In this document: in pieces, positions 138 to 63,886 of the stretch
How the letters are laid out: each line of letters starts with the position of its first letter
Position numbering within the stretch: the first letter of the stretch is position 1
NCBI RefSeq assembly: GCF_964019385.1
Contig: NC_088644.1
Location: 38,383,649 to 38,447,648, forward strand
From: Sycon ciliatum
Taxonomy: Eukaryota; Porifera; Calcarea; Leucosolenida; Sycettidae
Direction: 5' to 3'
Length of the DNA: 64,000 nucleotides
The notes under the pieces: generated by a model
Database searches by the model: none
Seen by the model: only the letters and a program-made list of their open reading frames with translations
What the model was told of the DNA's origin: nothing
Made by a program: the position numbers and the translations under genes

Positions 138-848
138 ATGGCTGCGCCAAGAAGAAGTACGCGATCCAACCAAGGTGTCTTGCCTGTACGGTTTCAGGAC
201 GAGGGAAATGAACCCGCAAGTCGTCTGAGCCCAGGAAGCCTGTCGGACGTGGACTCCGTGTCTGAAAGCAGTGTGTCAACCAGAGCCAGTGTTGTTGGCA
301 GTAGTATCAGCTCGTCTGCGTCGTCGTTGCGACGAGCAAGTGTTGTACAGGCAGAGCTGAGAATGGCTCGCATGGAGCGAGCCTTCTTGGAGCAAAAAAT
401 GGAGCAAGAGAGAAGGATATTTCGTCTGGAAATGGAGGCTGCGCAGGTCTCTCTCTCATCGACATCGCGGTCGAGCTCACCAGTCGATGAAAGTTCGGGA
501 TTGACATTCAAAACATGTGTCACCGGGCTTCCCAAGCAACCTCAAGCTCCGCTGGATAGTGCAGCTATGGCAGCTGTTGAACTACAGGGGAGTGATGTGC
601 TAGTAGAGCAGCACGTAGAGGAAGAAGTGCTTGTCGTTGAAGAACATGCAGCCAACGGAGCTGATGAAGTGAAAAGCGACGAGAAAAAAGTAGTTGTTGA
701 AAGCCGTGTGCAGTCACTGCAGTGTGCTCAAGATCCGAGTTCCGCTGTGTTGCACAAGGGGGACAGGGAACATGTTCGTGATCCAGCTGAGACCAGTGCA
801 AGTCTGAGTGCAGACAAGAGCACAGAGCTGACCACAGGACACGGCTGA
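138..848 (+). CDS. BEL-1 gag, N-terminal part, interrupted
   Basis: This is the start of the BEL-1 polyprotein. The ATG at 138 is preferred to the one at 84, which lies inside the LTR upstream of the primer-binding site. The product begins MAAPRRSTRS, has Ser/Arg-rich and acidic stretches and a charged, probably coiled-coil segment (RMERAFLEQKMEQERRIF) as found at the N-terminus of many BEL gag proteins. The stop at 846-848 belongs to the transposon inserted at 840. In the frame without the insertion, codons continue from 839 to 5486. Genuine gag coding therefore ends at 839, and the last three codons (840-848) are transposon TIR. Confidence 0.8.
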   Translation: MAAPRRSTRSNQGVLPVRFQDEGNEPASRLSPGSLSDVDSVSESSVSTRASVVGSSISSSASSLRRASVVQAELRMARMERAFLEQKMEQERRIFRLEMEAAQVSLSSTSRSSSPVDESSGLTFKTCVTGLPKQPQAPLDSAAMAAVELQGSDVLVEQHVEEEVLVVEEHAANGADEVKSDEKKVVVESRVQSLQCAQDPSSAVLHKGDREHVRDPAETSASLSADKSTELTTGHG

Positions 849-1130
849 CTCGCGCTGTGCATATGGTAAGATGGCGTCTTTTTTACCGACTTTTTTCGCA
901 AAAGGTTGTGATGGTGATCCGCGCGCGTCGCGTACGCGTCAGCGAAGCGACCGTACAATTTTTGTACAACAATGCACGTTTTGCATTGATTTTCGAAAAA
1001 TGTTCAAGAAGAACCACTCGAAGCATACTTCGCTTCGTTCATCGTTTTGGAGTTTTAGCTTTGGAAGACGAGTCCTTTGGAGGTATGGTTGTGACATGCA
1101 CACTTTATTGTTTCAAACATGTTGAATTGC

Positions 1131-1640
1131 CTTACCTTGCCCACCTGCCACCCGCTCTTCAAAGAGCGCCCCAGTTCCACCTACCTCGACTTTCAGAATT
1201 TGCAGTTAGACAGAACAGTAATATTTTAGAATCACAATTAGCTGCCAAAGCTACTCTCAGCCTAGCGTAATATGGTAGATGTATAGCTTCAACGTGTCTA
1301 ATGGACTTACCTGGCCCACCTGCCACCCGCTCTTGAAAGAGCGCCCCAGTTCCACCTACCTCGGCGTTCAGAATTTTATAGTTCGCCAGCAAAGTAATAT
1401 TTTAGAAACAGGATCAGCTGCCAATTCTCTCAGCCTGACGTTATGTTGTGGATTTATAGCTTCAACCTGTGGATTTGACTTACCTGCGCCCCATGGCCCA
1501 GCCTGTTTCACTCTCTTTCAAGGAGCACCCTACCTTGCGTTGAATCGTAGCATTTTGAGCTTGTGAATAATTTTGTAGTATTGAACGAGTAATTCATGTC
1601 GGTAGTTGGTTTGACTTACCTGCCCCAGCCTGCCTGAAGA
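1131..1640. repeat. Degenerate subterminal tandem repeat in the RAG1-like transposon
   Basis: Four diverged units start with CTTACC at 1131, 1306, 1479 and 1615 (spacings 175, 173 and 136). The first two share CCACCTGCCACCCGCTCTT and contain a small palindrome, CGCTCTT..AAGAGCG. The block lies between the transposase stop and the left TIR. Subterminal repeats are common transposase-binding sites; that role is inference here. Confidence 0.75.
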
Positions 1641-1871
1641 AGCGCCCCTCACCTGATATCCAGCCATGTTCTTAGCATGGCTTGTGGATTTGACTCAACA
1701 TTGTCTGTGCCAGTTCTACCTGCTGTGTGTCCAACATTGTAAGAAATTGACAAGACTACTAGTACATTTCAATTTCAGAAACACAGTCAGAAATACTTTA
1801 CCTGTGGAGCGCGTGGATCCTGCAGCTCGCTCCATGATCCACCCAGTGGCCGTCACATAGTCAGCTTATTG

Positions 1872-4800
1872 CTAGCTTGTCTTCTTGCGCTTGGCAGCCG
1901 GCACGATCAGCTTGTTGTGAGTTGGCAGCGCTGTCGTCAGGTACTGGGCCACTAGAATCCTGAGGCGGTCGACATCCTTGTTCGTATTTTGCAGAGTGTG
2001 GCGCAACATGTTGAACTTGTGGTGGATGGACTCGCCACCTTGCTCTCCAAGAGCACCAAGAGCCATGCCAAACCTCTCCATGCAGGGGACAAGATGACAC
2101 TCGAGAAGGTGCAACTTAGGAGTTACAGGGCGTTTGTGGCGTGCTACTACCTCGGACCGGACATTCGCCATGAAGGAATTGATCTTCTCCTGCAAGCTGG
2201 AAGTGACAGTGTCGTCAGCTGCGCTAGTCGAAGAGAAGACGGCTCTGCAACTGGCGTACGCAGCAAAAAGCGACAGGTACCTCTGGGAGCACTCTGCGGC
2301 AGCTTGGATCAGTTGATGCTGAGACTGTGTCGGAGCAAAGTGAGCACCATCAGGATTGACAACAGAGGCGACTACATTGACCGGAGCAGATACAATTTCA
2401 CGAGTTACTGACGGTTGTAGTGCTTTGTTGATGTGGTTACCTACAAACGCGCCAGAATGATAGGCCTGCCGATCGATCCTGTGCTTCACCAAAACCGGTT
2501 CAAAGGACGAAGCGCAAGGACCATTCTTGACCTTAGCACCCACGAGCTGCTCCTCTAAATGAGCGATGCGGCCGCTGATCTCATTTAATTGCTGCTGTTG
2601 TGTTGCCCAGTGCTGCTGTAACTGAGCTGCAAACCCTGCGTGTTGTGCTTCTGCCGCATGATTTGCTTGCACCGCTTGTGCTGCATTCAGCAATGCCCAT
2701 TGCAGTTGCGTCTGTGCAACATAAAGCTGCTGTTCTTGCTCTGCCTTCTCTGATAGCAGTGCCCATAGCTGCTGCTGTTTCTCGGCTACTTCCTTGAATG
2801 TTGCGCTTGCTGATTCTGCGTTGATCGATCTTGCCAGCATGAGGTCAATGGCTTCTGCATCTCTGATCATTGCCTCAAAGAGCAGAGGAAAAATACCAAG
2901 ATCAAGGTGCAGTATGGGAATGCACACATCACGAATGTCAATCGGGAGGATTTGGGGTCTGATGACATTGTTGAACTGTTTGGCATTTTGAAGTCTGGAC
3001 CCAGATGCCACAAACTGACCATGGTCTTCGCTCAAAGTGGCAAGGGTTCTGTCAGGGAAGGGAGTGTCATGTGTCTGCTGCATGTCTTTCTTGGTGGCCA
3101 AACAGAACAGACAGGGTCTGACACCACTTGCTCCTGACAGCCCATACAACTTCATCATGAAATCATAATCCCCGAAGAGGCACACTTTGATGGTCTTACC
3201 CTTCCATGTCGATCCGCGAAGGTTGGCAATTTGCTCAGCGTACGGCTGAAGCATCGTTGCCAAATTGGAGGGCGAGTCCTTTCCAGCGAACACCAAGAAG
3301 GGAACAGTGTTGCTCAGGGAGTTGGGGTGCAAAACATTCACGAGCTGGAAGCAAAGCTTAAATGAATGACCGCCATGGTCCCCTCCAATCTTCACCCACA
3401 GCTCATCTTCTGGCAGTGTCCCGTTCCAAAGCAACGTGCCCGCTGTTTCGTTCAGCTCAACAAAGTGCAGAACGAGCTGCACGAGGTCCTCAAAGCGCAC
3501 GACTGGGCTCATCACGACGGTGCCAGAGCTATCAAGAAGAGGAACTTCTTCAGCAACGAGAGGGAACGGGAGCTCTTCCGACAACTGCTTCCGCATTTCC
3601 CGTTCCGACTCTAGTGGCAGACCACACAACTTTAGGTAGCGGCGAAGCTTCCGCAAGCCATTCCAAGGAAGTTGGAGGTCAGCTTTGATGGCAAGTCCAA
3701 TCCCCTTGGTCAAGCCTTCTGGGAGCAACCCGGCCTCTCGCAGAAGATCCTCACGTCGTGCCGTACGCAATGATTGCAGGGCGTGAATGCTCTGCGCATC
3801 CTTTCCTTTCGCTCCACCACATGCTGCTTCCTGGATGGTAGTGAGAAGGCTTTCCCTTCTTCTCAGAGTCGCAGAGGAGGCATCCGCAGATGACACCCTG
3901 GCGACAGGAACGCGGTGCCACATGGAGGTACTGCCTCGGGTACGCTGTTCAAGGCGACCATCATCGGATCGAGCTTCGATAAGCTTTGTGAGAAGCTTCG
4001 ACCCGACATCGCCTTGAAGGACACTGGGCGGAGCGTCCAGGACACTACCAACTGTAGACGCTGGCGACAAATATCGCTTGGGCGGCGGGTTCTTGCTGAA
4101 GGCACAGTCCGCTACATGCTGCTTCAATGTTCCGAGGGGAACTCTTGCTGGGCAGCCCTCAAAAGCTAACTCACCAACATTGTCACAAGACACAACAAGC
4201 TCAGGTAGTGTGCTGCTAGCAAATACGTGTGGTTGTTTAAAACCTGACAATAGCACCATACGCTTACATGAAAAGCAAACAGTGCTGGCTCCCAGCCAAC
4301 CCACAATGCACGACACACAGAACAGTTTGCTGCAGCACGGCGATTCCACAGCACAATTCACGACAAGGCCGCAAATAGGGCAGACCAACGAACTCGGTAC
4401 GAACGTGAATCTGTCTGGCGACAGAGGCAATCCACACACATGGCTTCCAGTACACAATGCGGAGAGCTTTTCCGGGTCCACATCGGTACCATGGGTGGGG
4501 GAGGGTTGAGTAGGCCGTGGCGCCGCACACACACCGTGAAGGGATTTGGCTTTCTTTTGTCGGCCACCCTTTCTGGCCGCAGCAATAGCCGTGCAAATGC
4601 TGCACTTCGTGTCTGTATGTGCAGACCATTGTTGCAAAGCTGGCAGTTTCTGACCACAACCACCACTAATACTAGCAACAGCACCACTTCCTACTGTCTT
4701 CATGACAGACGTCATGCTATCAAAACACGCCTTGCAAAAATGACTTGGGTGTATATCCTCCTTATCTCCTTCCACTTTCTCACCAAACGCACGAAATATG

Positions 4801-4943
4801 TCTAGGGAGTAATCCTTGACACTATAGGTTGGGGCACTCCATGACTTGTTGCCCTTACGGTGGGTTGGTAGCTTGCAGCCACCCAAACGACATAGGGAAT
4901 GCAAATGTTCCACATGAAACGCATAGTCATGATCAGGATCCAT
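1872..4943 (-). CDS. RAG1-like transposase with RING/zinc N-terminus
   Basis: Intact ORF of 1023 residues from the ATG at 4943, close to vertebrate RAG1 in length. The frame is open upstream, so an upstream exon is possible. Cys pairs lie at 18/23, 70/73 (IHPSHFCKAC-like) and 114/117, in the order and context of the RAG1 N-terminal zinc region. A RING-like module follows (Cys 188, 191, 203/204, 209, 212, 223, 226), with Lys206 where RAG1 has the RING His, then a C-C-H-C finger (253, 264, 276, 280). By eye the core aligns with RAG1: Asp522 (GGDHGG) with D600, Asp592/594 (GDYD) with D708, Cys611/614 with C727/C730, His945/950 (H-x4-H) with H937/H942, and Glu971 with E962. A Gln/Ala-rich coiled coil (about 715-805) lies between the second Asp and the Glu. 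Predicted role: nuclear cut-and-paste transposase. Family level is secure; placement in Chapaev versus Transib/RAG rests on TSD length. Confidence 0.88.
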   Translation of the reverse strand: MDPDHDYAFHVEHLHSLCRLGGCKLPTHRKGNKSWSAPTYSVKDYSLDIFRAFGEKVEGDKEDIHPSHFCKACFDSMTSVMKTVGSGAVASISGGCGQKLPALQQWSAHTDTKCSICTAIAAARKGGRQKKAKSLHGVCAAPRPTQPSPTHGTDVDPEKLSALCTGSHVCGLPLSPDRFTFVPSSLVCPICGLVVNCAVESPCCSKLFCVSCIVGWLGASTVCFSCKRMVLLSGFKQPHVFASSTLPELVVSCDNVGELAFEGCPARVPLGTLKQHVADCAFSKNPPPKRYLSPASTVGSVLDAPPSVLQGDVGSKLLTKLIEARSDDGRLEQRTRGSTSMWHRVPVARVSSADASSATLRRRESLLTTIQEAACGGAKGKDAQSIHALQSLRTARREDLLREAGLLPEGLTKGIGLAIKADLQLPWNGLRKLRRYLKLCGLPLESEREMRKQLSEELPFPLVAEEVPLLDSSGTVVMSPVVRFEDLVQLVLHFVELNETAGTLLWNGTLPEDELWVKIGGDHGGHSFKLCFQLVNVLHPNSLSNTVPFLVFAGKDSPSNLATMLQPYAEQIANLRGSTWKGKTIKVCLFGDYDFMMKLYGLSGASGVRPCLFCLATKKDMQQTHDTPFPDRTLATLSEDHGQFVASGSRLQNAKQFNNVIRPQILPIDIRDVCIPILHLDLGIFPLLFEAMIRDAEAIDLMLARSINAESASATFKEVAEKQQQLWALLSEKAEQEQQLYVAQTQLQWALLNAAQAVQANHAAEAQHAGFAAQLQQHWATQQQQLNEISGRIAHLEEQLVGAKVKNGPCASSFEPVLVKHRIDRQAYHSGAFVGNHINKALQPSVTREIVSAPVNVVASVVNPDGAHFAPTQSQHQLIQAAAECSQRYLSLFAAYASCRAVFSSTSAADDTVTSSLQEKINSFMANVRSEVVARHKRPVTPKLHLLECHLVPCMERFGMALGALGEQGGESIHHKFNMLRHTLQNTNKDVDRLRILVAQYLTTALPTHNKLIVPAAKRKKTS

Positions 4944-5485
4944 CGTAACACTCCACACAACCTATGCACACAAATTTGAAAATTTTGAAAACAAGCACAA
5001 TGTACCTTCGGGTAAGTCGCCGAGAACATGGATCTGCCCTTCAGAACACGAAGAACTTTTCTGAGCGTGGAAACAAGAGATAGTCCTACCTGGAAAAACC
5101 TCCCAAAGCCGTGGCGTTTGCTCCAGTAGGGTATACCAGGCGTCTCCAAATCCACTTCGAATCGTTACCAAAGTCTCACTACGTAGCAGCGTTCAACAAG
5201 GAAGTCAGCAAAGAAACAGTTCGATCGAGAAAGAAACAGTTTTTTCGGCTCGGTTCCTGCAAGGCCCTACACTACCGCATGTATAGAGCTAGTTGTTGTG
5301 ATTCTCGTTGTTCCGTGCAGCTCAGAAGGGCCTCGATATCAGCATAAGTCGACGATCGCGTCGAGCAAGTTTGAGAATTTTTTTGAATTTGAGTGCGGGG
5401 TTTCCCCGCAATCACGACTACAGAGCCTGTACTCGTACCCACGCTGCTGTGCACTAGATCACGCACTGTGAGACAGCCGTGAGGA

Positions 5486-8405
5486 GTGACAGGTTCAAGT
5501 GTCCGTGACAGCAGGCATGCACCCAACACTGTGCAAGCTGCATTCAAGTCTAGGTCCAAGCCTGCCAGCTCACACAAACCTGTACGGGAGGCTGCCGCTG
5601 CACGTGGTGCATACTTTGAGACTCCTACTGCTAGGGCTGCTGATCCCAGACTGTAGGCTCCTTCTGCCAACCATGCCAGTGCTAGGAGAGTGCAAGACTG
5701 GGTTGACAGAGTGCAGGTACAAGTACCAGCAGGAATAAATCAACGTCAGGTCAAGCCTCTGGAGTTGCCCAGATTTGATGGCATGCAGAGGAGCTACGTA
5801 AGATGGCGCCAGAGATTTATGAGACTGGTGGATGATGACTACTCCGTGTCCGAGGATTATAAGATGGCTCGCTTACGAGAGGCGCTAGATGGTGGCAAGG
5901 CCGAGGAACTGATATGCGAGGTGCTGGATGGGCCTGGTGCATATAGAGCGGCCTTGGAGGAGTTGGAAGCTTGGTACGGAAGCAGTGAGCGCGAGCTAGA
6001 ACGTCAGCAGACGGAACTCATGAGTCTGCCCAGAATTGTCATGGAGAAAGACACTGAGTCGCTGCAAAAGCTCGCTGTCAAGCTCCGCAATGTCATTGTG
6101 AACATGTCAACTGCTGGAATGCAGCCAGGCAGGGAGCTGTATATAGCGGTCACACAGAAGTTGCCACGTGGCATGCTGTCACGCTACCTGGATTGCCATG
6201 ACGACAACAGGAGCAATGCCCAGGAGTTGTCACAATGGCTGATGAGACGGGTGAATCAGTCGAGGCACGTTGATGCACGCCTCTCAACTGGCGGTGATCA
6301 GCAGCCAGCTCAAAGAGAGCAGCGCAAGCACAGGGTCTTGGTGTCGAACGCCAGTCAGGCAGCCGAGCCGACGGAGCCTGAACCATCAAGAGCTGCCTAT
6401 GCTCAGCCCAGAACCGCAGCTTCTGACAGGAGGACGTGCCCGAAGTGTCGAGGCAGCCATGCTCTTGCAGATTGCTCCAACTTCCTGACCCTTGGCGTCC
6501 AGAAGAGATGGGACCTGGCGAAGCTGGTGGGGCTATGTTTGCGATGCCTGCAGCCTGGTCATTTTGCGAAGGAGTGCAAGAGCGCCGGATGCAAGAAGTG
6601 CCCAGGTGGCCATCACAGTCTGCTGCACTACGACAAGCAGAAGAAGGCCAGCCAACCTGATGAGAAGACGCAGAAAGACTCCTGCAGCAGTGCCTGTACA
6701 ACCAGTGCCGACCACACCATAGCCTTCATGACCATTCAGACGACAGTCCACGGAAACAGTACGGCAGCACAAGCCACAGCACTGTTGGACTCGGGTTCGT
6801 CAGCCAGCTATGTCACTGGGGGTCTTGTTCGAAGTCTCGGCATCACGACAGAGAAGTGTCGCATGGAGACGACGGTGCTCGGAGGCAGCTCTATCGTCGG
6901 GGAAACGGAAAAGGCCAGCCTTGTTATCGCCAGCCTGGACGGTTCCTACGAAGGCAAGCTGGAGGCATGGGTGCTACCCACAATCACTGCAGCCGTGCCA
7001 CCGGTCGAGTGGGAGCAGCAGAAGGCGAGCTGGAGCCACCTGCAGAGCTTGCCACCGATGGTGGATCCCAGCACTGCCGTCGACTTGTTGATCGGATTAG
7101 ACGCAGCAGAGATGCATGCGTCTCTTGAGGAGCGTGCGTGCCCCACGGAGGGAGGCCCGACAGCCCGGAAGACGCGCCTCGGTTGGGTACTGTTTGGCCC
7201 AAATGCTGTCAACAAGTCTAGCAGTGGCAGCACTACTCTACTCGGCGTCTCTCAAAGCTCCGGAGCTGAGGAGGAGCTGGATGAGCTAGTGAAGAAGTTC
7301 TGGAGTCTGGAGGCTGTGGGAATGCAGCCACATCCGCCTACGCCCGCAATGACTCCAGACGAGAAGGCAGCGGACGACCTCACAGCGGCAACATTGAGCC
7401 ATGACGGTGAGCGTTTCCAGATCGGCATCCCGTGGCACAGCGGTGGACCTGGACCAGAGGTTCGGAGCAATTTCGAACTGGCAAATGGCCGGCTGACCAG
7501 CCTCATGCGGATGCTGGAGAGGAAGCCAGACGTCAAGCTACGGTATGCGGCAGTCTTGGAGGATTATCTTAGCAAAGGCTACATCAGACTTCTGGAAGAC
7601 GTGCCGTCTGTCAGCGCCAACCAGAACTACCTTCCGCACTTCGCCGTTGTTAGAGAAGACAAGGCAACTACCAAAGTGAGAATCGTCTTCGACGGAGCGG
7701 CTAGAAACGGGACCCATCCCAGCATCAACGAGCTGATGTACGCTGGGCCGAAGTTGCAGAATAACATGGTCCATGTTCTGCTCCGGTTCTGCAAGGATGC
7801 CGTGGCTCTTGCGGCAGACATCTCGGAGATGTTCTTGCAGGTCAGGCTGAGACCTGAAGACAGGTGCTATCATCGATTTCTGTGGGAGAAGGACGGCAAC
7901 CTCGTAGCGTTCGAGTTCCTGAGGCTCGTATTCGGCATCAAAGCCTCGCCATACCTGGCAGGACGCGCACTGCTTGAAACAGCGAATAGGTTTGCTGACA
8001 CAACGTCCAAGGAAGCCGTGAGAAGTGTGGCAGACAACTTCTATGTCGACGACCTCTTGAAGTCCTGCAAGTCTGACGAAAAGGCGATTCAGTTGCGAGC
8101 TGATATGCAGGCGCTTCTGCTTCAAGGAGGATTCCACATTCGGAAGTGGAACAGCAGCTCGTCAGCCGTCATCCAAACTGTTCCTGAAGCCGACCGAGCT
8201 GCAAACACCGAACTTGCCATCACCGATCGTGAGGCAGGAGCGGAGCCAACCCAGAAGACTCTCGGCGTGTCATGGTCGTGCCAGACGGATTGCTTCACCT
8301 TCCACTATGCTGAACCCAAGGAGTTTGAGTTCACGCGTCGCGGTGTGTTGTCGCAGATGTGCCGGCTCTTCGATCCTCGTGGGCAGCTGGCTCCTTTTAC
8401 GGTAC
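5486..8405 (+). CDS. BEL-1 gag-pol: DUF1759 gag, zinc knuckle, protease, reverse transcriptase
   Basis: The frame resumes right after the AGGA duplication, meets one in-frame TAG at 5654-5656, then stays open to 8405, where Gypsy-A1 begins. There is no ATG near the start because this is the middle of a polyprotein. Order: DUF1759-like gag from about 5756 (LELPRFDG), CCHC knuckle near 6537-6578 (CLRCLQPGHFAKEC), retropepsin-like protease with DSGSS near 6787 (DUF1758 type), then reverse transcriptase with DISEMFLQVRL and the catalytic YVDD near 8040-8051. The product makes cDNA in cytoplasmic particles. The TAG (CTG TAG GCT context) is either a nonsense mutation, for example from CAG, or a readthrough site; one copy cannot tell. 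The last two codons before an apparent stop at 8408 are Gypsy LTR sequence. Confidence 0.88.
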
Positions 8406-8769
8406 TGTAGTAGACGGACTTCCCCCTACACAAATCACTATGTATTACTATGTATTGCACTATGCATTGCTGACACCATCAGATCCCTTGCTTTCATTCG
8501 CTAGCTAGCGCTCGGAGCTGTAACTGGCAATCTCGTACCATATATATAGATCCGTGTGTCAGTTGCCCAGCTCAGTTGTTGCAGAGTCCTTGCGTCCGTT
8601 GTTTCTGTCGTCTTCCCTTCACTTATTGAGTCTTTCAATATACTATAAGTAATTCTGTGTCACCTACGTTTGTCGTTCCGTGTGTGCAATATTGTTCCCT
8701 GAGAATACTACCTGTGTTTTGCCGGAGAGACTGAACCAGTTTTGCCTTGTCACTCGGTCGCGTATTACA
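8406..8769 (+). repeat. Gypsy-A1 5' LTR
   Basis: 364 bp, starting TGTAGTAGAC and ending GTATTACA. It contains the palindrome GCTAGCTAGC near 8499-8510 and a TATA box near 8540. It has only one copy of the 50-bp start unit that is duplicated in the 3' LTR. Confidence 0.92.
8540..8548 (+). promoter_or_regulatory. TATA box in Gypsy-A1 LTR
   Basis: ATATATATA in the context CCATATATATAGATC, in the middle of the LTR where U3 promoters sit. The same motif is near 15555-15563 in the 3' LTR and in both Gypsy-A2 LTRs. The transcription start was not determined. Confidence 0.6.
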
Positions 8770-8787: not shown

Positions 8788-9147
8788 AGCTCTGCGTTCG
8801 TCAGTCGCAGTATTCCGGACCACGCCTCGTTATTTCGCCGTGCAGTGAACGTTGCCGTTGCCGTTCTCGTCTCAACTCAAGCTGAGTAACTTTGTTCCGT
8901 GCCAATTTACGATTTTAATATTTACATTTTTGTAGTGCTAGTCTTTTCTAGGCTTACTTTGTTGGATCTATTCGTAGTCTTGTCCCCTAAGTAAGCTAGC
9001 TCTTCGTTGCCAGTTTTTCTTGCACTGCTCGCCGTACTTGAACTGTTGCTATAGCGTAGGCTTAGTCCTCAAACGCGTCCCGTGTTGCTTGCGAAGTCCT
9101 ATAGGCCTACTTGTTTGTTTGTTATCCTTATATACAAGACACCGAAA

Positions 9148-10257
9148 ATGGCACAGAATCCTCAAGCTGCTGCTGCCGCTGCCGCTGCTGCTCCCGCTGC
9201 ACCAGCTCTGGCTCCGGGTCAGGTTCCGGCTCCTCGACAGGCACCACTTGCTCGGCCGGTAGTTGTACCGCCGACGTTTGGGGGTGCCAGCCAAGACGAT
9301 TGGCACTGCTTCATCGCCAGGTTCGACGCGGCGTGCGTGGTCAATGGGTACCGGGATGCGGAAAGGCTGCAGTTTTTACCTTGTTGTTTCAAGGAGAGTG
9401 CTTTCACAACTTACCAGACCATTCTGGCGGCGCACCCGCAGTATACGTATGTAGAAATGTGCACCGAATTAGGGCTACGGTTCGCACCGCCACAGCAAAG
9501 TCGCCTCCTTGAGGCCGAGTTTCGAGCTCGCCTGAAACGATCCACTGAGTCCCAGGCCGAGTTCGCCGCAGCTCTTCAGCGCCTTGCGGCACGCGCCTTT
9601 CCAGGTCAACAGGGTCCGCTGTTAGATCGCCTGACGCTCAATCAATTTATTGACGGCCAGGTCAATAGTGACCTGCGCTTGCACATCAGGACATCCAGCC
9701 CTGCAGCCCTCGATGCCGCCGTTCGACGGGCGTACGAAGTTGCAGCGATCTTAGAGGTCGAGAATCGCCGCAGTCTTCCGGTTCCTACACCAGCCTGCGC
9801 TGCCCTGACCGCCTCTATGCCTCAGGCACACTCCGTAGGTCCACTCGCGGATCCGACTCCTACGTCCAGTGCCACCGTGGCCCACGTAGCTCCGAGTTCG
9901 ACTTCGAGCTCCACCGACCCGCTCGTACTATCGTTGTTGAGCAAAATTTCGGACCAGCTAGCTGATCTACAGGTCTTCTCCGCAACCTCCGCTCCGTCGC
10001 CACGGGCGTATAGTGACGACACTCGAGCTCCACGCGGCCGTGGTCACAGCGTCTTCCCTCGAAGCGCGCCCATATCGGGCCCAACTCGATTTCCTGGCAG
10101 CTCGAATCGTAACCCGCCTCCGTACAACGGCACAGGCCGCGGACTTTACGATGGCGCGCGTGATCGCGGGTGCTTCACGTGTGGCGATCAGTCCCACTTC
10201 CGTCGTGATTGTCCCCACTCGACGCGTGGGGGTCGTCCGTCGGGAAACCGCTATTGA
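9148..10257 (+). CDS. Gypsy-A1 gag
   Basis: 369-residue gag. The ATG at 9148 starts MAQNPQAAAA; an in-frame ATG at 9082 would add 22 leader residues and is less likely. Ala/Pro-rich start, then a Ty3-type capsid region (QDDWHCFIARFDAACV, about residues 48-190), a Ser/Thr-rich linker and a C-terminal CCHC knuckle CFTCGDQSHFRRDC near 10171, which binds RNA. The pol frame overlaps its end in the -1 frame (10209-10257), as expected for ribosomal frameshifting. The Gypsy-A2 homologue (34285-35394) is also 369 residues and almost the same. Confidence 0.88.
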   Translation: MAQNPQAAAAAAAAAPAAPALAPGQVPAPRQAPLARPVVVPPTFGGASQDDWHCFIARFDAACVVNGYRDAERLQFLPCCFKESAFTTYQTILAAHPQYTYVEMCTELGLRFAPPQQSRLLEAEFRARLKRSTESQAEFAAALQRLAARAFPGQQGPLLDRLTLNQFIDGQVNSDLRLHIRTSSPAALDAAVRRAYEVAAILEVENRRSLPVPTPACAALTASMPQAHSVGPLADPTPTSSATVAHVAPSSTSSSTDPLVLSLLSKISDQLADLQVFSATSAPSPRAYSDDTRAPRGRGHSVFPRSAPISGPTRFPGSSNRNPPPYNGTGRGLYDGARDRGCFTCGDQSHFRRDCPHSTRGGRPSGNRY

Positions 10258-10783
10258 CTGGTGCTGCTCGGCAAGCTCCAGTCTTCGATACTAGTGTTCC
10301 TAGCTCGACTGTGCCGACTTGTACTGGTTGTGAATGTCGTCCCTGTTATTGTACTGTTGATGTGCGTTGCCCTACGTCTGCACCTGTGACTGTGTGTCCT
10401 GTTACGCATGTTCAGTCGTCTTCTGCAGTTTCTCCGTCTGTCTATGTTGCGGTTAGTCTCCAAGAGACGAAATGCCATGCTCTTGTTGACACTGGGTCTA
10501 GTGTTTCCCTTGTGTCTACTGCATTGTGGCGTAGTCTGTGCACGACCTCCTCTGTCCCTGTGTCTGCTGCTCCTGTTGTGTCTGGTGTGACGGGCCGTCC
10601 CCTCTCCACTACGGGTACCGTGTCCCTCTCTGTTTGTACACCCTCGTTCGTAGCTGTTCAGAATTTTATCGTTGCTGCTGATATCACGTCTGATGTAATC
10701 CTCGGTGCTGACTTCCTACAGCAGCACAATGTCCTGCTTGATTTCTCCCGGGCTCAGTTGGTCCTGGATGATGTTAAATTGCC
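10209..10783 (+). pseudogene. Gypsy-A1 pol, protease part, cut by MITE
   Basis: The pol reading frame overlaps gag in the -1 frame. It encodes an aspartic protease with the active-site motif ALVDTGSSVSLVS near 10481-10520 and the second conserved stretch VILGADFLQQHN. At 10784 the frame runs into the inserted MITE and ends at a stop near 10961 after unrelated residues. The matching part of Gypsy-A2 continues without a break into the RT region. This copy therefore cannot make a normal Pro-Pol polyprotein. Confidence 0.8.
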
Positions 10784-11506
10784 CATAGCCAGCAATCGCA
10801 TGTCATCTCGTACATTGAAAATCAACATAATTTTGCGAATCGACCTTTTTTTCAGGATCACTTTTCAACGAGGACGAAGCAAAGTCGGCCGAACGAAGCC
10901 GAGAGGAAGAAAATCACCCTCTCCACTTCACCATCACGATACTGACATAGGTACGAGATGAAACAACTAAAAAATTCGCAAGAAAACTGTACGACCATCA
11001 TCGCGCTGACTTTGGTCTGACTTTGGTCTGAGAATTTCTATCACGATCAAAAATGTACGAGGAGCACTCAAAAATCAGCCACAGACGTACCTTTATCGCT
11101 CTCTACTCCTTTTTCAAGGCACAAAAGTCGACTCTCCACTTTCAAACCAGGAACCAGACATATCAGTGGTCCTTTTCAGCTGCTCCACGAGCGCAGGAAA
11201 TGTTCACCAAGGGGCGCAGAGCAGCATCCATTCCAGAAAAATAGCTAAAATACGAGTGAGACTGCATGCCTGAGTACATGAGTACATGTATGAGTACATG
11301 CAGAAAATAGTCAATTTCAGCGTTTCTGCTCCAAACAGCAACTAGCTTCGACTAGAAACAAAGATTACACCAAAGGATCAAACAACAACCATTTTCTGCA
11401 GTTTTTTTGCAGATGGCTTCCTTGTGCTTGGCCCAGCACGCCAAAAATCACACCTCGGAGGAGTACAAAATTTACAACTCTCAGATGTCCTTGATTGCTG
11501 GCCATG
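10784..11506. mobile_element. MITE-like insertion in Gypsy-A1 pol, 723 bp
   Basis: This block is absent at the same place in Gypsy-A2, where the flanks join directly near 33757. Its ends are inverted repeats: CATAGCCAGCAATC on the left against CATGGCCAGCAATC on the right, with weaker pairing extending inward (CATCT then AT-rich). It has no transposase. A target duplication is not clear, at most one base. The last 100 bp contain an ATG at 11407 that opens a frame into pol. Confidence 0.75.
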
Positions 11507-14500
11507 CGCTTGTACCCCTTCCACGTGTGCGTTCGCTTTCTGCTGCTGTTGCTGCCGCGCCCACACCAGCCCATGTTCCGACTGTCGTGCCCGACCTGAG
11601 TGCTCCGACTGTTCCTGCTGCCGTCGCTGCCTCCGTACCTGCTGCCGTCCCTGCCTCCGTGCTTGCTGCTGCTGCTCCGCCTGCTGCTGCTGCCAATGCT
11701 GTTGAATCTCTGGTGTCTCGTGTTGCTTCCTCGTTCCGTGTGTGCATCACACAGTCTGTTTCAGTTCCGCCCTGTCATGAAGTTATTCTTCCGGTTGCCC
11801 CGTCGGTATGTGCTGCTGGCTCTCCTGCTGCTGATACTTCGTATCTAATCGAGCCCCTTGATTCGTTCTCAGAGAAACACCCGACATTGGATGTCGGAAC
11901 GTCTGTCACGTCCCCGGATAACTTGGTTATCAATGTGGTTAACCGTGGTACCACCCAGATTACCTTGCATGCAAATACTCATATTGCTGTATGTGAACCT
12001 GTCCCTGAGTGTGCTGACACTTGTGCTGCTGTTGATGATTCGCCGTTCATGCCGCCGCCGCCTGTCCCAGTAGAGAAGATTGATGCGTATATCGAAAAGA
12101 ATTGTTGTCACCTGTCACCAACGGACCGTTCTACCTTGCGTGACCTTCTCCTGCAGTACCACGATGTATTTGCTCTTCATCCCGACGACCATGGGTACTG
12201 TGATCTTGCGCCACATAAGATAGACACAGGTGATCATTCGCCTATTAAACAACAACCTTACCGTGTTCCATTCCGTCATCGTGAGCAGCTCCAGAATATT
12301 ATCAATGACCTTCTGCAGAAAGGTGTCATTACTCCCTCTGCGAGCCCGTGGGCTTCGCCTGTTGTCCTCGTGCCTAAGAAAGATGGCTCTCTGCGTCTCT
12401 GTGTTGACTATCGCCGGCTCAACAAGATCACCACAGCTGATGCTTATCCTCTTCCTCGGGTCGACGATACCCTAGACGCGTTCTCTGGCTCTAAGGTATT
12501 CTCGACACTTGACCTTGCTAGTGGCTACTGGCAAATCGCAATCCACCCTCAAGACCAAGCTAAAACAGCCTTCGTGACGCCCCTTGGGTTGTACGAGTTC
12601 ACGGTTCTTCCTATGGGTTGCTGCAATGGGCCTGCCACATTTCAGCGCTTGATGCAAGCGATCCTAAATAATCTCCTTACCAGTCCTGATCCCGTCTGCC
12701 GTGTGTTTTTTGATGACATTGGCCTTGGGTCAGCCACTGTTAGTCTTGGCTTGGATGGCCTCCGGTCCGTTTTCACGTGTCTTCGTCGGTACAATCTCAA
12801 GCTTCGGCTTGAGAAATGCGCTTTCCTGCAGCCCCGCACTAAGTTCCTTGGTGTGGACATCAGTGCCGATGGCCTTCACACCTCAGCTTCGAAGGTTCAC
12901 GATATTGTTCACTGGCGTACGCCGACATCCGTTCGTGAAGTGCGTGGTTTTCTCGGCCTCGCTGGGTATTACCGGAAATTTGTTCCGCACTTCGCGCAAG
13001 CTGCCGCCCCCCTGGCCGCACTCACTAAGAAAAATGCGAAGTTTTCCTGGGGTCCTGCTTGTCAGGCTGCTTTCTGTGTACTAAAAAAACGCCTCTCATC
13101 TGCGCCTGTGCTTGCTCAGCCTGACTACACGTCTGCCGCCGCTCCCTTCATCCTTGATGTGGATGCCAGTGATTTTGGTATGGGCGGTGTGCTCTCTCAG
13201 GTACAAAATGGCCATGAGTGTGTGATTTCCTACGGTAGTGCTATTCTCAACACCGCCCAACGTAACTACTCCACTACGGAGAAGGAACTCCTTGCATTTG
13301 TTCACTTCGCTGATGTGTTCCGCTACTACCTCGTTGGTCGAGCATTTGTTGTGCGCACTGATCATGCTGCTCTCAAATGGCTCCATTCGCTCAAGGAACC
13401 ACGCGGTCGTCGTGCCCGTTGGTTAGAACAACTTGCTGAACTCGAGTTCACGGTTATTCATCGCCCTGGCCGTCAACATTGCAATGCCGATGCTCTGTCT
13501 CGCCGTCCTCCTGAGTCTGTTGCCGCCACTACCCGTCAGTCACCGCCTGACCAGTCGTCACCAGCCGCACCAGCAGCTCCTGCTCCTGCTTGTGATCCTG
13601 GACCCACTGTACCGAAACCTGCACCTGACTCCTGGCTGCCGCGCTTTACTGCTGCTGAGCTGCTTGCTGCGCAAAAAGAGGATCCTGATGTGTCCATTGT
13701 GTTAGGCTGGCATGATTCTAGTCATGATGTGTTTAATTCTCCCCCTGCACACACATTAACTGCCTCTAGCCGTGCTGTTCGCCGCTATGCTTCTGAAATT
13801 CATTTGCTTTCCCTACGTGATGGTGTTTTGTATCGCACAGACCCGTCGGCTGATTCTGTTTTGCAATTAGCTGTTCCGTTCTCTTTCCAAGCTGATATCT
13901 TAGCTGCAGTGCACGCCGATGTTAGTGGTGGTCATCTCGGTGCTACAAAGACCATTGACAAGGCCAAATGCCGTTTCTTCTGGCCAGGTATGTCAGCTGA
14001 TTTGCGCACATTTGTAGCTAATTGCCAAGAGTGCATGTCCCGTAAGAGCGCTACGACTGGCCGAGCACCATTGCAGTCCATGCGAGCTGGCTTCCCTAAC
14101 GAGATCGTAGCCATGGATCTCGTTGGACCACTGCCTACCAGTCGCCATGGCAACCGTTACCTACTGGTATGTAGTGACTACTTCTCACGTTGGCCTGAAG
14201 CGTACCCTCTACCCACTATGACTGCTGCTGCCGTTGCGGATGTGTTCTTTCGGAACTGGATCTGTCGGTTTGGTGCCCCAGAACAACTCCACACCGATCA
14301 GGGCACACAATTTGAGTCTGAACTCTTCAGTGAACTGTGTCGCCTCATGAATATCCGAAAGACTCGGACCACCGCGTATCATCCCCAGGGCGATGGGCTC
14401 GTGGAACGCCTCAACCGCACCATAGTTTCAACGTTGCGAGTGTATGTAGCGGATCTGCCCACCTTCTGGGATCAGTATGTTTCAACCGTCCTGCTTGCAT

Positions 14501-15189
14501 ACCGTACAGCCAAGCATTCTTCTACCCAATTCACCCCAGCTCAGCTTATGTTTGGTCGCCAACTCCGTCTGCCTATCGACCTTGTCTATGGGTCACCCCC
14601 GACAGAGTTTGTGTCGCCCGCCGAATATGTCACACAACTGTCCAAGTCCCTCCACCATAGCTTCGATACTGCCCGTCGTAATGATAATGCTGCGCACCAC
14701 AGCCAGAAGGACCACTACGACCTTCGTCAACGTGGCACTGCATTCCAAGTCGGTGATAGTGTGTGGCTCCTTGAACCTGGAATGCGTCGCAAACTCCAGC
14801 CACCGTGGACCGGACCATACCGGATTGTCCATGTGTCGCCGCCAACGTCATACGACATTCAATTGATCAACGAACCCTCCAGCACCAGTAAGCGTGTACA
14901 TTTCAACCGCCTCAAGCTACACGCCCGCTCAAACGCCAAGTCGTCAGTCTCTCAGTCCGGCCCAGATGTCCCGCTGTCTGAAGCGCCACTGGCTCCTACT
15001 TCTCCATGTCCGCCGCCTGTTCCGCTATTCTCCTGGCCTGATGCTGATGATGCCCCACCCCAACCTGTTCCTCCTCCGCCGCCGGTCTTGCTGCAGCCAG
15101 CGCCACCAGCACCTGGTCCGCGTGCCCATCTGCACCGCAACGCCGGTCTTCCTGTTCGTTACAGGAACAACTATGTGTTCCCCCAATGA
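11507..15189 (+). CDS. Gypsy-A1 pol: RT, RNase H, integrase
   Basis: Pol sequence after the MITE. An open frame starts at an ATG in the MITE (11407), but genuine pol begins at 11507. After a low-complexity Ala/Val/Pro region come RT (LCVDYRRLNKIT, catalytic FFDD near 12706), RNase H (ILDVDASDFGMGGVLSQ), the H2C2 zinc domain of integrase (about 13915-14040), the integrase core with Asp (AMDLVGPLP), Asp (HTDQGTQF near 14294) and Glu (GLVERLNRTI near 14400), then a GPY/F-like module (PPWTGPYRIV) and a Pro-rich tail. No frameshift is seen in this part, unlike Gypsy-A2. Confidence 0.88.
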
Positions 15190-17100: not shown

Positions 17101-19371
17101 TTGGCCAAGATCACCATTCCACGCTGCTTCAAGGATCCGTCATCAGATGAGCCGTTGTCACTGCACATATTCACGGATGCGTCCGACTCGGCGTATGCGG
17201 CGGTGGTCTACACGCGCCAAGAGCTGTCAAATGGATTGGCAAGAGTGTCCCTGGCCATGGCAAAAGCTCGTCCGTCACCCATTAGGAAGAAGACGATTCC
17301 CATGTTAGAACTTCAGGGTGCTGTGCTTGGAGCTCGACTAGCTGGTGAGGTAGCTACGGCACTTGACGTTCCTGTGGAACGGCGGCATTATTGGACAGAC
17401 TCTATGAACGTCCTTTATTGGATCAGATCATCAAGCAGGAAGTTCAAGATAGAGGTCGCGAACCGAGTTGCGCAGATCCAGGAGGAGTCGTCACCAAGCC
17501 AATGGCAGCATGTACCGGGCAAACTGAACCCTGCCGACCTTCCGTCTCGTGGAGCGTCCGCCAAGCAGCTGTCTGAAGAACAGGGGTGGTGGACAGGACC
17601 GGCATTCTTGAGGACGTCTGAAGTAGACTGGCCGAAGAGACAGATCATTGTTCCTGGCGAGCTACCAGGACAGCTGAAGCGCGCGACTTGTCTCACTGCT
17701 AACACCACAGCATCGCCGAGGCTCCATCCTGACAACTACTCCAACTGGACGCGTCTGAAGAGAGTCTCAGCCTGGGGTAGACGGTTTGTGCGTTGTGCTA
17801 GTAGAGGCAAGCACTGTGCGCAGGAGTCCTCAACATCGGCACAATCAGCAGCATGCGACGGTACGTTGGTCTCCCTCCATTATCGGCGAACCAAGGATTC
17901 ACCGAAGGTGTCCGTTCAGCCGCTCACCGTGTCAGAGCTTCAGGAAGCGGAGCATTGTTGGATTCGCTATGCGCAGAGGGAAGCCTTCTCCGAGTCCTAC
18001 GATGCCTTGCGTCATGGCAGAGAGATCAGCACTGGTGCCCTCGTGAAGCTGAAGCCGTACCTCGATGCACAGAGTGATATGATGAAGGTTGGTGGACGTC
18101 TGAGTACAGCCCATCACCTTCCAACGAGCGTTCAGAGTCCAGTCATTCTACCGTCAAAGCACCGCGTCACGCAGCTGATCGTCAGTGACGAAGATGACCG
18201 ATGCGGCCATGTTGTGGGCGTCAATCACATTCTGTCTAACTTGTCTGTCAAGTATTGGATTGTCAAGGGCCAGTCAGCCGTGAAGCGTCATCGGAATGAT
18301 TGTGTGCGGTGTAAGCGCACATGGGCCAAGGCTGCGCATCCAATCATGGGCCAGCTACCAGACTTCCGCACAAGCGGACCTCTTCAACCATTTGCAAAGG
18401 TTGGAGTGGATTACTGCGGCCCGTTCTACACAAAGCAAGGCCGTGGACGACCGCAGGTGAAACGCTGGGTTTGTGTGTTTACCTGCCTGCAAGTTAGAGC
18501 CTGTTATCTCGAGATGGCAACGTCATTGGACACCGATGGCTTCCTGATGGCATTCGACCGATTTGTGAAGCGCCGAGGTGTACCAATGGAAGTGGTTTCG
18601 GACAACGGGACGAATTTCGTGGCTGCGGAGAGGCTAACGAGGGAGGCGGTTGTTGCCCTGGACAACAGCAAGATTGAATCGAATCTGGCTGATCGCGGAG
18701 CGACTTGGCGCTTCAACCCGCCAGCATCTCCGCATTTCGGTGGTGTGTTCGAAGCGATTGTCAAGTCGGTGAAGAGAGCCCTGCAGAACGTGTTGCAACG
18801 TGCCGACATTACCGATGAGGAACTCATGACAGCGCTAGTTCACGCCGAAGCATTCCTCAACTCCCGACCCTTGTCCACGGTGTCATCAGATCCCACCGAC
18901 TTACGGCCATTGACTCCTTTGAGCTTCCTTATCGGCCACATGGATGTGAGGACAGCTATGGAAGAGAATGCCGATCGTCAGGAGGTGGTCAACCCGCGGC
19001 GTCGCTGGCTTTACGTTCAACGGCTGGTATTGGAAGTGTGGCGAAGATGGTTGAAGGAGCTCGTGCCGCGGCTGAATGTACGCGCGAAGTGGCGTGGCGA
19101 CAAGCGCACGGTGGAAGTTGGCGACGTGCTGCTCGTTGTGAAGAAAGATACGCCTAGAGGAAAGTGGCCTCTTGGCCGCGTGAGTGAAGTCTTCCCGGGT
19201 CCGGACGGCGTAGTGCGAGTCGTGGATGTCGTGATACAGGGGAAGACTTACCGACGCGCGGTGCACAACCTCATACCACTGGAAGTTACAGATGATGAGC
19301 AAGCAGTTACACCGGCCAGTGTACCCGCCACCAGCTCTAAAGGTGTCGATGAAGTGTCTGCCGTAGTATGA
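17101..19371 (+). CDS. BEL-1 pol: RNase H and integrase
   Basis: Last segment of the BEL-1 polyprotein, in phase with 15899. It begins LAKITIPRCF and has RNase H motifs (LHIFTDASDSAYAAVVY; HYWTDSMNVLYWI), the integrase zinc region (HVVGVNHILSNL..CVRCKR) and the integrase core with Asp in GVDYCGPF near 18406, Asp in SDNGTNF near 18598 and Glu in GGVFEAIVKS near 18750. A DUF5641-like C-terminal domain follows (VGDVLLVVKKDTPRGKWPLGRV). It ends at TGA 19369-19371 with no stop or frameshift inside. It would insert cDNA into chromosomes if the whole polyprotein were made. Confidence 0.88.
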   Translation: MAKITIPRCFKDPSSDEPLSLHIFTDASDSAYAAVVYTRQELSNGLARVSLAMAKARPSPIRKKTIPMLELQGAVLGARLAGEVATALDVPVERRHYWTDSMNVLYWIRSSSRKFKIEVANRVAQIQEESSPSQWQHVPGKLNPADLPSRGASAKQLSEEQGWWTGPAFLRTSEVDWPKRQIIVPGELPGQLKRATCLTANTTASPRLHPDNYSNWTRLKRVSAWGRRFVRCASRGKHCAQESSTSAQSAACDGTLVSLHYRRTKDSPKVSVQPLTVSELQEAEHCWIRYAQREAFSESYDALRHGREISTGALVKLKPYLDAQSDMMKVGGRLSTAHHLPTSVQSPVILPSKHRVTQLIVSDEDDRCGHVVGVNHILSNLSVKYWIVKGQSAVKRHRNDCVRCKRTWAKAAHPIMGQLPDFRTSGPLQPFAKVGVDYCGPFYTKQGRGRPQVKRWVCVFTCLQVRACYLEMATSLDTDGFLMAFDRFVKRRGVPMEVVSDNGTNFVAAERLTREAVVALDNSKIESNLADRGATWRFNPPASPHFGGVFEAIVKSVKRALQNVLQRADITDEELMTALVHAEAFLNSRPLSTVSSDPTDLRPLTPLSFLIGHMDVRTAMEENADRQEVVNPRRRWLYVQRLVLEVWRRWLKELVPRLNVRAKWRGDKRTVEVGDVLLVVKKDTPRGKWPLGRVSEVFPGPDGVVRVVDVVIQGKTYRRAVHNLIPLEVTDDEQAVTPASVPATSSKGVDEVSAVV

Positions 19372-21061: not shown

Positions 21062-24000
21062 GTGAGTTTACCATTATCACTGCAAGGCTGCTGGGACTTG
21101 TACTAAAGGAAAGTGGTGTTTAGCGACGATCCAGTGGTGGACAGGAAACCGGGTGTTTTACCTACACAAATCAATCCACATGTATATATCCATGGTCATG
21201 ATTTGAGCAGTCTCCAAAGACAGCTGGTCGCCTATTGCAGTGGTTGCTGACGTAGCCAGTTTTGTATTGTAAGCAATTGCTATTGGTATTCCACTGAAGG
21301 TGCAAATCGCTTACGGAGAGCATGCTTAGCTGGTGCTAAGTTGTCTGCTGCTGTGAATTCCTGTGTTCTACAGTTGATGGTGTGCTCTCGGTTTTCCTGC
21401 GCTAACAGCTCTGCAGTTGTCGGACGAACAGCTGAGGGCAGTAAGTCGCTCCTGGCCAGCAGATGTTCACCATCTACTTATATAAATAAGGGGGGGGGTT
21501 GTCAACTGATATAACTTGAACTTTAATCGTGCCTGGTTATTGAACGGCTCCAGAGCAGAGTGGCGGTGGTCACGCGCTCCACTTGTATGCTTTGCGTTAG
21601 TGGTGTGGAGGTTTCTTCATTACTTCACCCTGTGCTTCAAATCAATTCTCTGTCTCGTGTGCTGCTAGCTATGTGTTTGAGTGATCTAGGCATGTGCGCT
21701 CAGATTGCTTGTCTGCAGAGCTTTACAATGACTGTGTGATATTTTGTCCTGGTTGATGTGTCTTCACTCTCTGTGCAGTTGCAACTGGTATCCTGGCTCC
21801 AACCATGAATTTTACAGCGAGAAAGACAGCTAGCATTACGTGGAGTACGTAGAACTAGAACCTAGAACCGACCTGTTGAGTTACGGTAGTGCAGTGAAAC
21901 CTGCATTTAGAGACCGCTGCAATAAGAGACCACCTATCTTGAGAGGCCATCTGTCTTGAGAGGCAAACTGTCTTTTAATAATTTGTACAGACCACCTGCC
22001 TTTAGAGACCACATGCCTTCATAGACCACCTGCCTTTAGAGACCACCTGCCTTTATAGACCACCTGTATTTATAGAACACCTGTCTTTAGAGAACACCTG
22101 CTTTGCAAAGGTTACACTGTACCGGTGTGTAATACGCGACCGAGTGACAAGGCAAAACTGGTTCAGTCTCTCCGGCAAAACACAGGTAGTATTCTCAGGG
22201 AACAATATTGCACACACGGAACGGCAAAACGTAGGTGACACAGAATTACTTATAGTATATTGAAAGACTCAATAAGTGAAGGGAAGACGACAGAAACAAC
22301 GGAGGCAAAGACTCTGCAACAACTGAGCTGGACAACTGACACACGGATCTATATATATGGTGCGAGATTGCCAGTTACAGCTCCGAGCGCTAGCTAGCGA
22401 ATGAAAGCTGTAGCCGAGACGTTATAATGTCAAACTGATTTTGATTGGGAGAGCATATCGGCTACAAGAACACTGGTATACTGTTGACTGCTGTAATTGC
22501 TGGTTGCGGACAAACCAAACTACGTGGCGACCACCATGAGGTCTAAAGGAAAGAATCCAGAAAGTGGCTGTATACCACAGCTAAACCAAAGCGTGCGCGC
22601 AGGCAGTAATGTGTATGCGCCGGCGGTAATGTGTATGCGCAGCAATACACCAAATACACAAACGACCAAAGCATGCGCGCGGGCTGAAATGTGTGCGCGC
22701 AGCAATACAACAAATAGAATACACCAAAAGGGGGTAAAGGGGTTACAAACTACGTTTCTGTATTCGAAGTGTAGGCGTGAAGTATGCAGAGCAGCGTGCA
22801 CGGAAGTCAATGCTGAAGGTAACGTAACTAGCTTCCGTGGCAATGTAACTGTTCTTAGCACAACGACACAGACAGTGCGTATGAAGATCGCGCATGGAAG
22901 AGACACCATAAACAAGTGCCTAGTACAGGCTGAATAGTTACGGAATGCTCGAATGTGGGTTTTATCTATGTTTAGATTTAGAGCACTATAAGTGAGACAT
23001 GTACGTATGTACAAACATACGTACGAGCGTGCATAGGTCCGATAATGGAATCTAGACATAACGGACACAGAACCATACAGGGCGCAGATCCATACAGGGC
23101 GTGGATCCATAAGGGGCACGGATCCTACTTTGAAGTATATGGGAGTTAGATAGACATAAGCGGCTGAATATATTACAACTATAGTACTGTACAAGAAGGA
23201 TTCGCGAATGGTGGTGCCATTCGCGACACTCCGGGGCCAGGATGTCAAAGAAGATCATTCTGGATGAGTTGGCCAAGGGCCTGACGTTGACGCACTGCTG
23301 CCGCACGAGGGGGGCGCTTAGCTGGTGTTTCAAGGTCACTGGGGTGAGCAGCAGGTGTTGAATCTTGATGAGTGTCAAGCGCGGGAGTTGAAGCGGTTGG
23401 CTGACATTCGTCGTCAAACTCAAGTGGATACAGAAGTTGCAGGGGTCGGTGTAGCTCAGTTCCATCGGCTGTCGAAACTGTGGCAGAGCGCACCAATCCA
23501 TCGGGACCAACGTGCAGCTTCTTGATACGTGCTAATTTCCACGTTGCTCTGGGCGCATTGTCGCCAATGAGCACTACCGACTGAATTCTAGGCTCGACCT
23601 TGGAAGAGCGACTCTGGTGGTGTTGCCGTTGGGTGCGTTCGCGCAAGCTTGACAAATAGTCGTCTCTCCATTGCTGCCAAAACTAATTTAGCAGCCTGTC
23701 ACCCTTCTTCCATTTGTCGAGGAGGTCCGTTGCAGCAGATTGGTTGCCGGGTAGATAGTCAGGGTCACTGGCATCATCTGGCTGTACCAACGGCGGGTGG
23801 GCGGTTGATGTCCTGATGGAGAGGAACTGCGACGGTGTCAGGACGTTGTCGATGTCGCCGCTCACGTAGGTCAACGGTCGCGAGTTGACCACTGCCTCCA
23901 CTTCACTCAATACTGTCTGCAGCTGGGAAAGGCGTAGCTTTAGTGCGCCCAGGGTCTTGCGGAGACATCTCTTCGTGATACCGACCATTCTCTCATAGAA

Positions 24001-60984: not shown

Positions 60985-61117
60985 GTCCTTTTCTTTCACA
61001 TTCGCGCCTGTAGAGCACTGCTGACAACTTCCCTTTCAATTCGCCCAAAATCGCTCCCAAACGCCAACAGGAGTATTCTGGATGAATGGATTGTAGTTTT
61101 AAACTATGCGGATGGCT

Positions 61118-63886
<2,769 letters not shown>

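Follow-up and report, generated by a model that had tools for sequence, protein, structure and literature searches.

A probable Chapaev transposon with a RAG1-type N-terminal region in the sponge Sycon ciliatum

The window analysed here comprises 64,000 nucleotides of the genome of the calcareous sponge Sycon ciliatum (contig NC_088644.1, positions 38,383,649 to 38,447,648 of the forward strand). Near its start lies a DNA transposon of 4,642 bp (840..5481 of the window), whose transposase gene occupies the minus strand as a single frame of 1023 codons without internal stop, as a first-pass annotation of the sequence had claimed (Table 1). That annotation read the element as a structurally complete RAG1-like transposon, uniting in one open reading frame (ORF) the zinc-binding N-terminus and the DDE core of RAG1, the enzyme that shuffles antibody genes. 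Our analysis identifies it, with high confidence, as an autonomous DNA transposon that belongs to the Chapaev superfamily (CMC/CMCT clade), moves by cut-and-paste and was recently mobile. Its two halves seem to be related to RAG1 to different degrees.

An insertion with defined ends and exact empty sites

The terminal inverted repeats (TIRs), CACGGCTGACTC (from 840) and CACGGCTGTCTC (minus strand, from 5481), match at 11 of 12 positions and lie exactly at the element ends, with AGGA on either side. As a sequence alone this TIR is unremarkable: among 500 pairs of random segments, 26 reached its local alignment score. Because so short an inverted repeat scores within the random range, the ends needed further proof, which is provided by other copies that keep them and by paralogous empty sites.

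A protein search of the genome (538 Mb, 313 contigs) yielded at least 52 matches, including five full-length copies at 99–100% identity, the window copy among them; the matches listed also contain five copies at 76–77% identity and many at 40–63%. These counts are lower bounds, with 45 of 1029 candidates scored. Between the window copy and copy L002, which lies on another contig, identity is 99.94% in DNA and 100% in protein, and the two diverge at the CAC..GTG ends. Both CACGG..CCGTG ends are retained in 27 of 32 copies drawn from several subfamilies (window copy included), and the target site duplication (TSD) is exactly 4 bp in 21 of these 27. Terminal CACGG/CCGTG is damaged at both ends in L018, L030 and L038 and at one end in L011 and L029. 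Three of them are short of bases at both ends, while their interiors still match sister copies at 96–99% identity or more, as though the ends had been nibbled after cutting.

The interrupted host element is a BEL/Pao retroelement, recognized by matches to RVT_1, DUF1759, Peptidase_A17 and DUF5641. Its left flank was found at 11 other places in the genome. At 10 of them it is joined directly to the right flank, with zero bases between, giving exact empty sites with a single copy of the 4 bp; the eleventh (C9:28840558) had no right-flank match. Removing the insert and retaining one AGGA leaves one of the three frames open for 309 codons through the junction. Since 10 of the 11 other retroelement copies are exact empty sites, the insertion was precise and duplicated 4 bp, and near-identical full-length copies elsewhere in the genome mark a recent spread. 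The first-pass description of a complete transposon with TIRs and TSD is therefore upheld. An intact ORF would also be expected of a host gene domesticated from a Chapaev transposase and no longer mobile, but the TIRs, the TSD, the near-identical dispersed copies and the empty sites are those of a young insertion in a retroelement. The empty sites refute domestication, to which we attach practically no probability.

The N-terminal half matches the zinc region of RAG1

The Pfam family RAG1_imp_bd (PF12560) matched residues 6–133 of the transposase, the Chapa domain (E = 1.8e-5), and was found in 10 of 11 paralogues (best 4e-13). A profile built from the 11 paralogues aligned their first ~280 residues with mouse RAG1 residues 100–381 at E = 5.5e-27. 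RAG1 likeness of the N-terminal ~300 residues had been set beforehand as one of the checks on which the first-pass proposal should stand or fall, and it was borne out.

We considered whether this resemblance might be generic zinc-finger and RING similarity only. In a single-sequence search, the RING/zinc finger (ZnF) of TRAF6 scored as well as RAG1 (4.8e-6 and 8.1e-6, respectively), which is what such an explanation predicts; a profile of residues 1–135, without the RING, nevertheless retrieved RAG1 chains at 5e-15 and 1.7e-12, with the next non-RAG1 chain at 0.0011. This refutes generic similarity for the Chapa part, and we judge it extremely unlikely as an account of the region. The RING part taken alone is less specific to RAG1 than the Chapa part.

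Eight RING cysteines and the ligands of the C-C-H-C finger (C253, C264, H276 and C280) are invariant among the 11 paralogues, in agreement with the first-pass reading of these two modules. The three cysteine pairs read upstream of them fared unevenly: C70/C73 and C114/C117 are invariant, but of the first pair C18 alone is conserved, in 10 of the 11 members, the remaining one starting later.

The RAG1 N-terminal profile was matched at 122 or more places in the genome (137 of 255 candidates scored). Many short frames of about 150–200 residues carry only this domain. They were considered as stand-alone genes resembling N-RAG-TP, and the one examined (L043) is better read as a decayed, frame-shifted copy.

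The catalytic core and its likeness to RAG1

In the C-terminal half, D522, D592, C611, C614, L678-H679, H945, H950 and E971 are invariant in all 11 paralogues. A gap-free block scan against mouse RAG1 placed D592 on D708 (p = 0.005) and E971 on E962 (p = 0.007), each at rank 1. H679 fell on H795 of the LH motif, also at rank 1 (p = 0.0045), in a register that was set after viewing both sequences and is less independent than those of the first-pass annotation, and H945 on H937 at rank 1 but with p = 0.36. C611/C614 lie at the same spacing from D592 as C727/C730 of RAG1 from D708. Chaining five blocks in order gave a score of 20.4. The best of 1000 shuffles scored −5.3 and reversed RAG1 −27.4, and six other ORFs of the window did not rise above −7.0. 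In addition, the Pfam RAG1 core family (PF12940) matched one place in the genome (seven candidates), L041, a core fragment of the same family (28.0 bits, cut-off 25; E = 7.8e-7) that is 42% identical to the window transposase there.

Several observations weigh against a RAG1-like core. The pairing of D522 with RAG1 D600 reached only rank 4 in the block scan, and the in-order chain placed its block at RAG1 625; as the RAG1 register is unsupported, the proposed first catalytic Asp is placed by invariance only. Alignment of the core alignment to mouse RAG1 with hhalign was not significant (E = 0.028), and one of 60 shuffles nearly equalled it. The C-terminal core profile matched no RAG1 chain in the PDB, the window transposase gave no PF12940 match at E ≤ 10, and this family was absent among the 25 of 27 Pfam families listed for the 11-member alignment. 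A single-sequence, full-length structure model was too poor to use (mean predicted local distance difference test, pLDDT, 36.9); its strands 515–523, 526–534 and 546–552, helix 558–574 and strand 584–590 are RNase H-compatible but carry no weight. Taken together, the evidence that the transposase core may be homologous to the RAG1 core is real but weak. The residues that the first-pass annotation had equated with RAG1 are thus largely upheld: D592, H945/H950 and E971 withstood the comparison in both invariance and rank, and C611/C614 in invariance and spacing; D522 is invariant but unsupported in register, and D594 proved not to be invariant, being Glu in seven of the 11 paralogues.

Residues 416–575 matched DUF1280 (PF06918) at E = 8.6e-17, and DUF1280 matches were present in all 11 members. 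This family, listed as of 'unknown function', covers the start of the Chapaev core, D522 included, and is probably a transposase domain. It was matched at 150 or more places in the genome (150 of 231 candidates scored). A further Chapaev subfamily with frames of 1152 residues (C2:46108279 and similar; L042), outside the protein-search list, has a RAG1 N-terminal score above that of the window element and, in L042, a C-terminal core with the same motifs. No relatives were found in two collections that hold no eukaryotes, one of viral contigs scanned with both the transposase and the 11-member alignment, the other of genome contigs scanned with the alignment.

Assignment to the Chapaev superfamily

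Chapaev transposons (Kapitonov and Jurka 2007, as described in PMC4411706) are reported to end in CAC..GTG, to duplicate 3–4 bp of target and to carry the motifs C(2)C, LH and H(4)H, and horizontal transfer has been documented for Chapaev3 (PMC4079192). Of these motifs, C(2)C and H(3-4)H are described as common to the transposon groups EnSpm, Mirage, Chapaev and Transib and to RAG1 (PMC12730594). According to Kapitonov and Koonin 2015, Chapaev combines a Chapa domain similar to RAG1, followed in two subgroups by a RING, with the core (PMC4411706), and a 5-bp TSD is given for RAGL and Transib (PMC8355894, PMC4411706).

The Sycon family carries the Chapaev marks: CAC..GTG termini at both ends of most copies, a predominantly 4-bp TSD that is single in the empty sites, invariant C(2)C, LH and H(4)H motifs together with the DDE residues, and a Chapa domain followed by a RING, the last judged through RAG1 rather than a Chapaev profile. 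Some points count against the assignment. Six of the 27 copies with both ends lack a 4-bp TSD (0, 0, 1, 2, 5 and 6 bp), the ends are damaged in five of the 32 copies, and the placement in Chapaev rests on these marks rather than on a tree setting the element among named Chapaevs.

Strong N-terminal homology to RAG1 and an order of catalytic and zinc residues as in RAG1 would also be expected if the element were RAG-like (RAGL/ProtoRAG) or a Transib, and so a close relative of the V(D)J recombinase. TSD length strongly disfavours this: a 5-bp duplication (CATGC, copy L025) occurs in one of the 27 copies, against 4 bp in 21. The ends and the set of motifs likewise point to Chapaev. The core is moreover far from RAG1, with 24% identity in four alignable blocks compared with 63% within the family, and PF12940 is found neither with the window transposase nor among the families listed for the alignment. 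A genome search for RAG2 (PF03089) gave zero matches, but its control likewise gave zero. We consider a RAGL or Transib identity highly unlikely, and the first-pass designation in that sense is abandoned. The presence of both halves in one ORF does not make the element RAG-like, nor is the Chapa, RING and core architecture new, since it was published for Chapaev in 2015 (PMC4411706).

As a Chapaev, the element resembles named members as they are described in domain order, ends, TSD and motifs (PMC4411706), and differs in forming a large multi-subfamily expansion in another host. The N-RAG-TP of Aplysia (Panchin and Moroz 2008, via PMC8355894) likewise places RAG1 N-terminal-like sequence in a transposon, but in the present element the core sits in the same ORF as the N-terminus. 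RAGL/ProtoRAG and vertebrate RAG1 are described as sharing the N-terminal zinc motifs C1–C3, the RING dimerisation domain and a DDE core with ZnC2/ZnH2 ligands (PMC7204232); unlike them, the Sycon element makes a 4-bp rather than 5-bp TSD, and its core is too divergent for significant pairwise detection. Transib shares CAC-type ends and the C(2)C / H(3-4)H zinc motif (PMC12730594), but is described as without the RAG1 N-terminal region (PMC7204232, PMC8355894) and makes a 5-bp TSD.

Comparison of the two halves with RAG1

Two accounts of the origin of RAG1 are in print. In one, the ancestor shared by Chapaev, Transib and RAG already had the full Chapa-RING-core arrangement and passed it on as a unit, with later losses in Transib (PMC4411706); in the other, a Transib acquired an N-RAG-TP-like piece (PMC8355894), a view restated in a 2026 review (PMC13337447). 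We compared N-terminal domains and core as separate partitions, using mouse RAG1 as the sole RAG1 and nine of the 11 aligned family members; L011 and L022 were left out as close to other members. The comparison is confined to the Chapaev family of one genome and one RAG1, and does not include Chapaevs of other hosts, Transib or RAG1L.

Identity between RAG1 and the family is 26% in the N-terminal domains, where members are 34% identical among themselves; the corresponding values in the four core blocks are those given above. Maximum-likelihood distances (LG+G4) for the N-terminus (188 columns) were 2.18 within the family and 3.20 between RAG1 and the family, a ratio of 1.47, and those for the core (99 columns) were 0.81 and 6.55, a ratio of 8.04; above a distance of 3, saturation makes the absolute values unreliable. 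Bootstrap ratios (100 replicates each) ranged over 1.18–1.82 and 4.50–14.45, respectively, with zero overlap in 10,000 pairs, and dropping invariant columns gave 1.48 and 11.1. When an N-terminus was simulated with the core's ratio, identity fell to about 9% and none of 100 replicates reached the observed 27%; a core simulated with the N-terminus's ratio kept about 51%, and none of 100 was as low as the observed 24%. The core blocks were picked for alignability, a choice that should bring the core nearer to RAG1 rather than push it away. Model choice was split, the Akaike information criterion favouring unlinked branch lengths by 56 and the Bayesian information criterion favouring proportional ones by 2.4.

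Measured against the paralogues of this genome, RAG1's N-terminus lies near the edge of the Chapaev family spread and its core many times further out, which suggests that RAG1 could be a chimera, its N-terminal half stemming from an exchange with a Chapaev-type element that followed the separation of the Chapaev and Transib/RAG cores. The contrast appears although the N-terminus evolves faster, both within the Chapaev family and in the RAG1 lineage, where mouse and zebrafish are 41% identical in the RING/ZnF and 83% in a core piece. That the N-termini share a younger ancestor than the cores appears the simplest account, and the distance test favours it over joint inheritance. The rival explanation for the discordance is an episode of rapid change in one of the core lineages, and we give a chimeric RAG1 about an even chance.

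Proposed transposition mechanism

In RAG1, the N-terminal region serves in dimerisation, DNA contact and ubiquitin ligation. By analogy, the N-terminal Chapa zinc domain and the RING/ZnF of the Sycon transposase may mediate dimerisation and contact DNA or chromatin, with ubiquitin ligation as a further possible role. From what is known of the family, the transposase would bind the CAC..GTG ends and cut them with an RNase H-like active site formed by D522, D592 and E971, which a C2/H2 zinc site (C611, C614, H945 and H950) may brace. The 3' ends would then be joined to target DNA with a 4-bp stagger.

Features of the element and its surroundings

Table 1. Features of the transposon at the start of the window (window positions; residue numbers are those of the transposase).
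Feature	Position	Strand	Evidence
Whole transposon, 4,642 bp	840..5481	-	Ends common to near-identical copies in different flanks; empty sites
TSD AGGA, left copy	836..839	.	TIR/TSD inspection, copy comparison
TSD AGGA, right copy	5482..5485	.	TIR/TSD inspection, copy comparison
Left TIR CACGGCTGACTC	840..851	+	TIR comparison, other copies
Right TIR CACGGCTGTCTC (minus-strand reading)	5470..5481	-	TIR comparison, other copies
Transposase ORF, 1023 aa and stop, one unbroken frame	1872..4943	-	Second copy: protein 100%, DNA 99.94% identical
Chapa / RAG1 N-terminal zinc domain, residues 6–133	4545..4928	-	PF12560 E = 1.8e-5; residues 1–135 profile E = 5e-15
RING and following C-C-H-C zinc finger, residues 184–282	4098..4394	-	RAG1 and TRAF6 RING/ZnF matches; invariant ligands
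DUF1280 match, residues 416–575, covering first catalytic Asp	3219..3698	-	PF06918 E = 8.6e-17; 11/11 members
D522 codon, proposed first catalytic Asp	3378..3380	-	Invariant 11/11; RAG1 register unsupported by block scan
D592 codon, proposed second catalytic Asp (RAG1 D708)	3168..3170	-	Invariant; rank 1, p = 0.005
C(2)C motif, C611 and C614 (RAG1 C727/C730)	3102..3113	-	Invariant; RAG1-like spacing from Asp
LH motif, L678-H679 (RAG1 H795)	2907..2912	-	Invariant; rank 1, p = 0.0045
Gln-rich predicted long helix 711–796, between LH and H(4)H	2556..2813	-	Low-confidence model (pLDDT about 50–64); poorly conserved
H(4)H motif, H945 and H950 (RAG1 H937/H942)	2094..2111	-	Invariant; rank 1, p = 0.36
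E971 codon, proposed catalytic Glu (RAG1 E962)	2031..2033	-	Invariant; rank 1, p = 0.007
Imperfect direct repeats of ~175 bp, between stop codon and left TIR	1116..1705	.	Repeat families D1–D4

The ~175-bp direct repeats are putative subterminal binding sites or 3' untranslated sequence. The surrounding BEL/Pao retroelement (84–839, 5486–8410 and 17101–19371, plus strand) is split by the transposon and by a Gypsy-type element with ORFs at 9082–10257, 10209–10961 and 11407–15189. The retroelement nest also holds the ORFs of a second Gypsy-type copy and a second BEL/Pao element, at 30182–35460 and 23683–28986 (both minus strand). A large fibronectin-III repeat gene and a temptin/copper monooxygenase gene lie at 37235–41524 and 55239–56996 (plus strand). 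The window further contains a long GT repeat at 53.1–53.8 kb and a very long GTN-type simple repeat (61106–63904) that reads as a 932-codon frame of nearly all valine.

Implications for the origin of RAG1

The first-pass annotation had proposed that this element bears on whether the N-terminal region and core of RAG1 were acquired together. It carries both halves and is relevant to that question, but alone it is not decisive, and the distance comparison leans towards separate acquisition. On the annotation's further point, that the host may branch early, marker searches of the genome gave zero matches for COX1 and 12 for DEG/ENaC, the latter with a bacterial control that matched as well. A genome with many Chapaev subfamilies, at 40–100% identity, offers an internal yardstick, against which a two-partition distance test can separate the two accounts of RAG1 origin; we found no such test among the titles and abstracts listed in searches of an open-licence paper library. 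The intact, near-identical copies would lend themselves well to biochemical study of how a RAG1-type N-terminus works within a free-standing transposase. With the architecture itself already in print, the distance discordance between the halves is the part worth pursuing.

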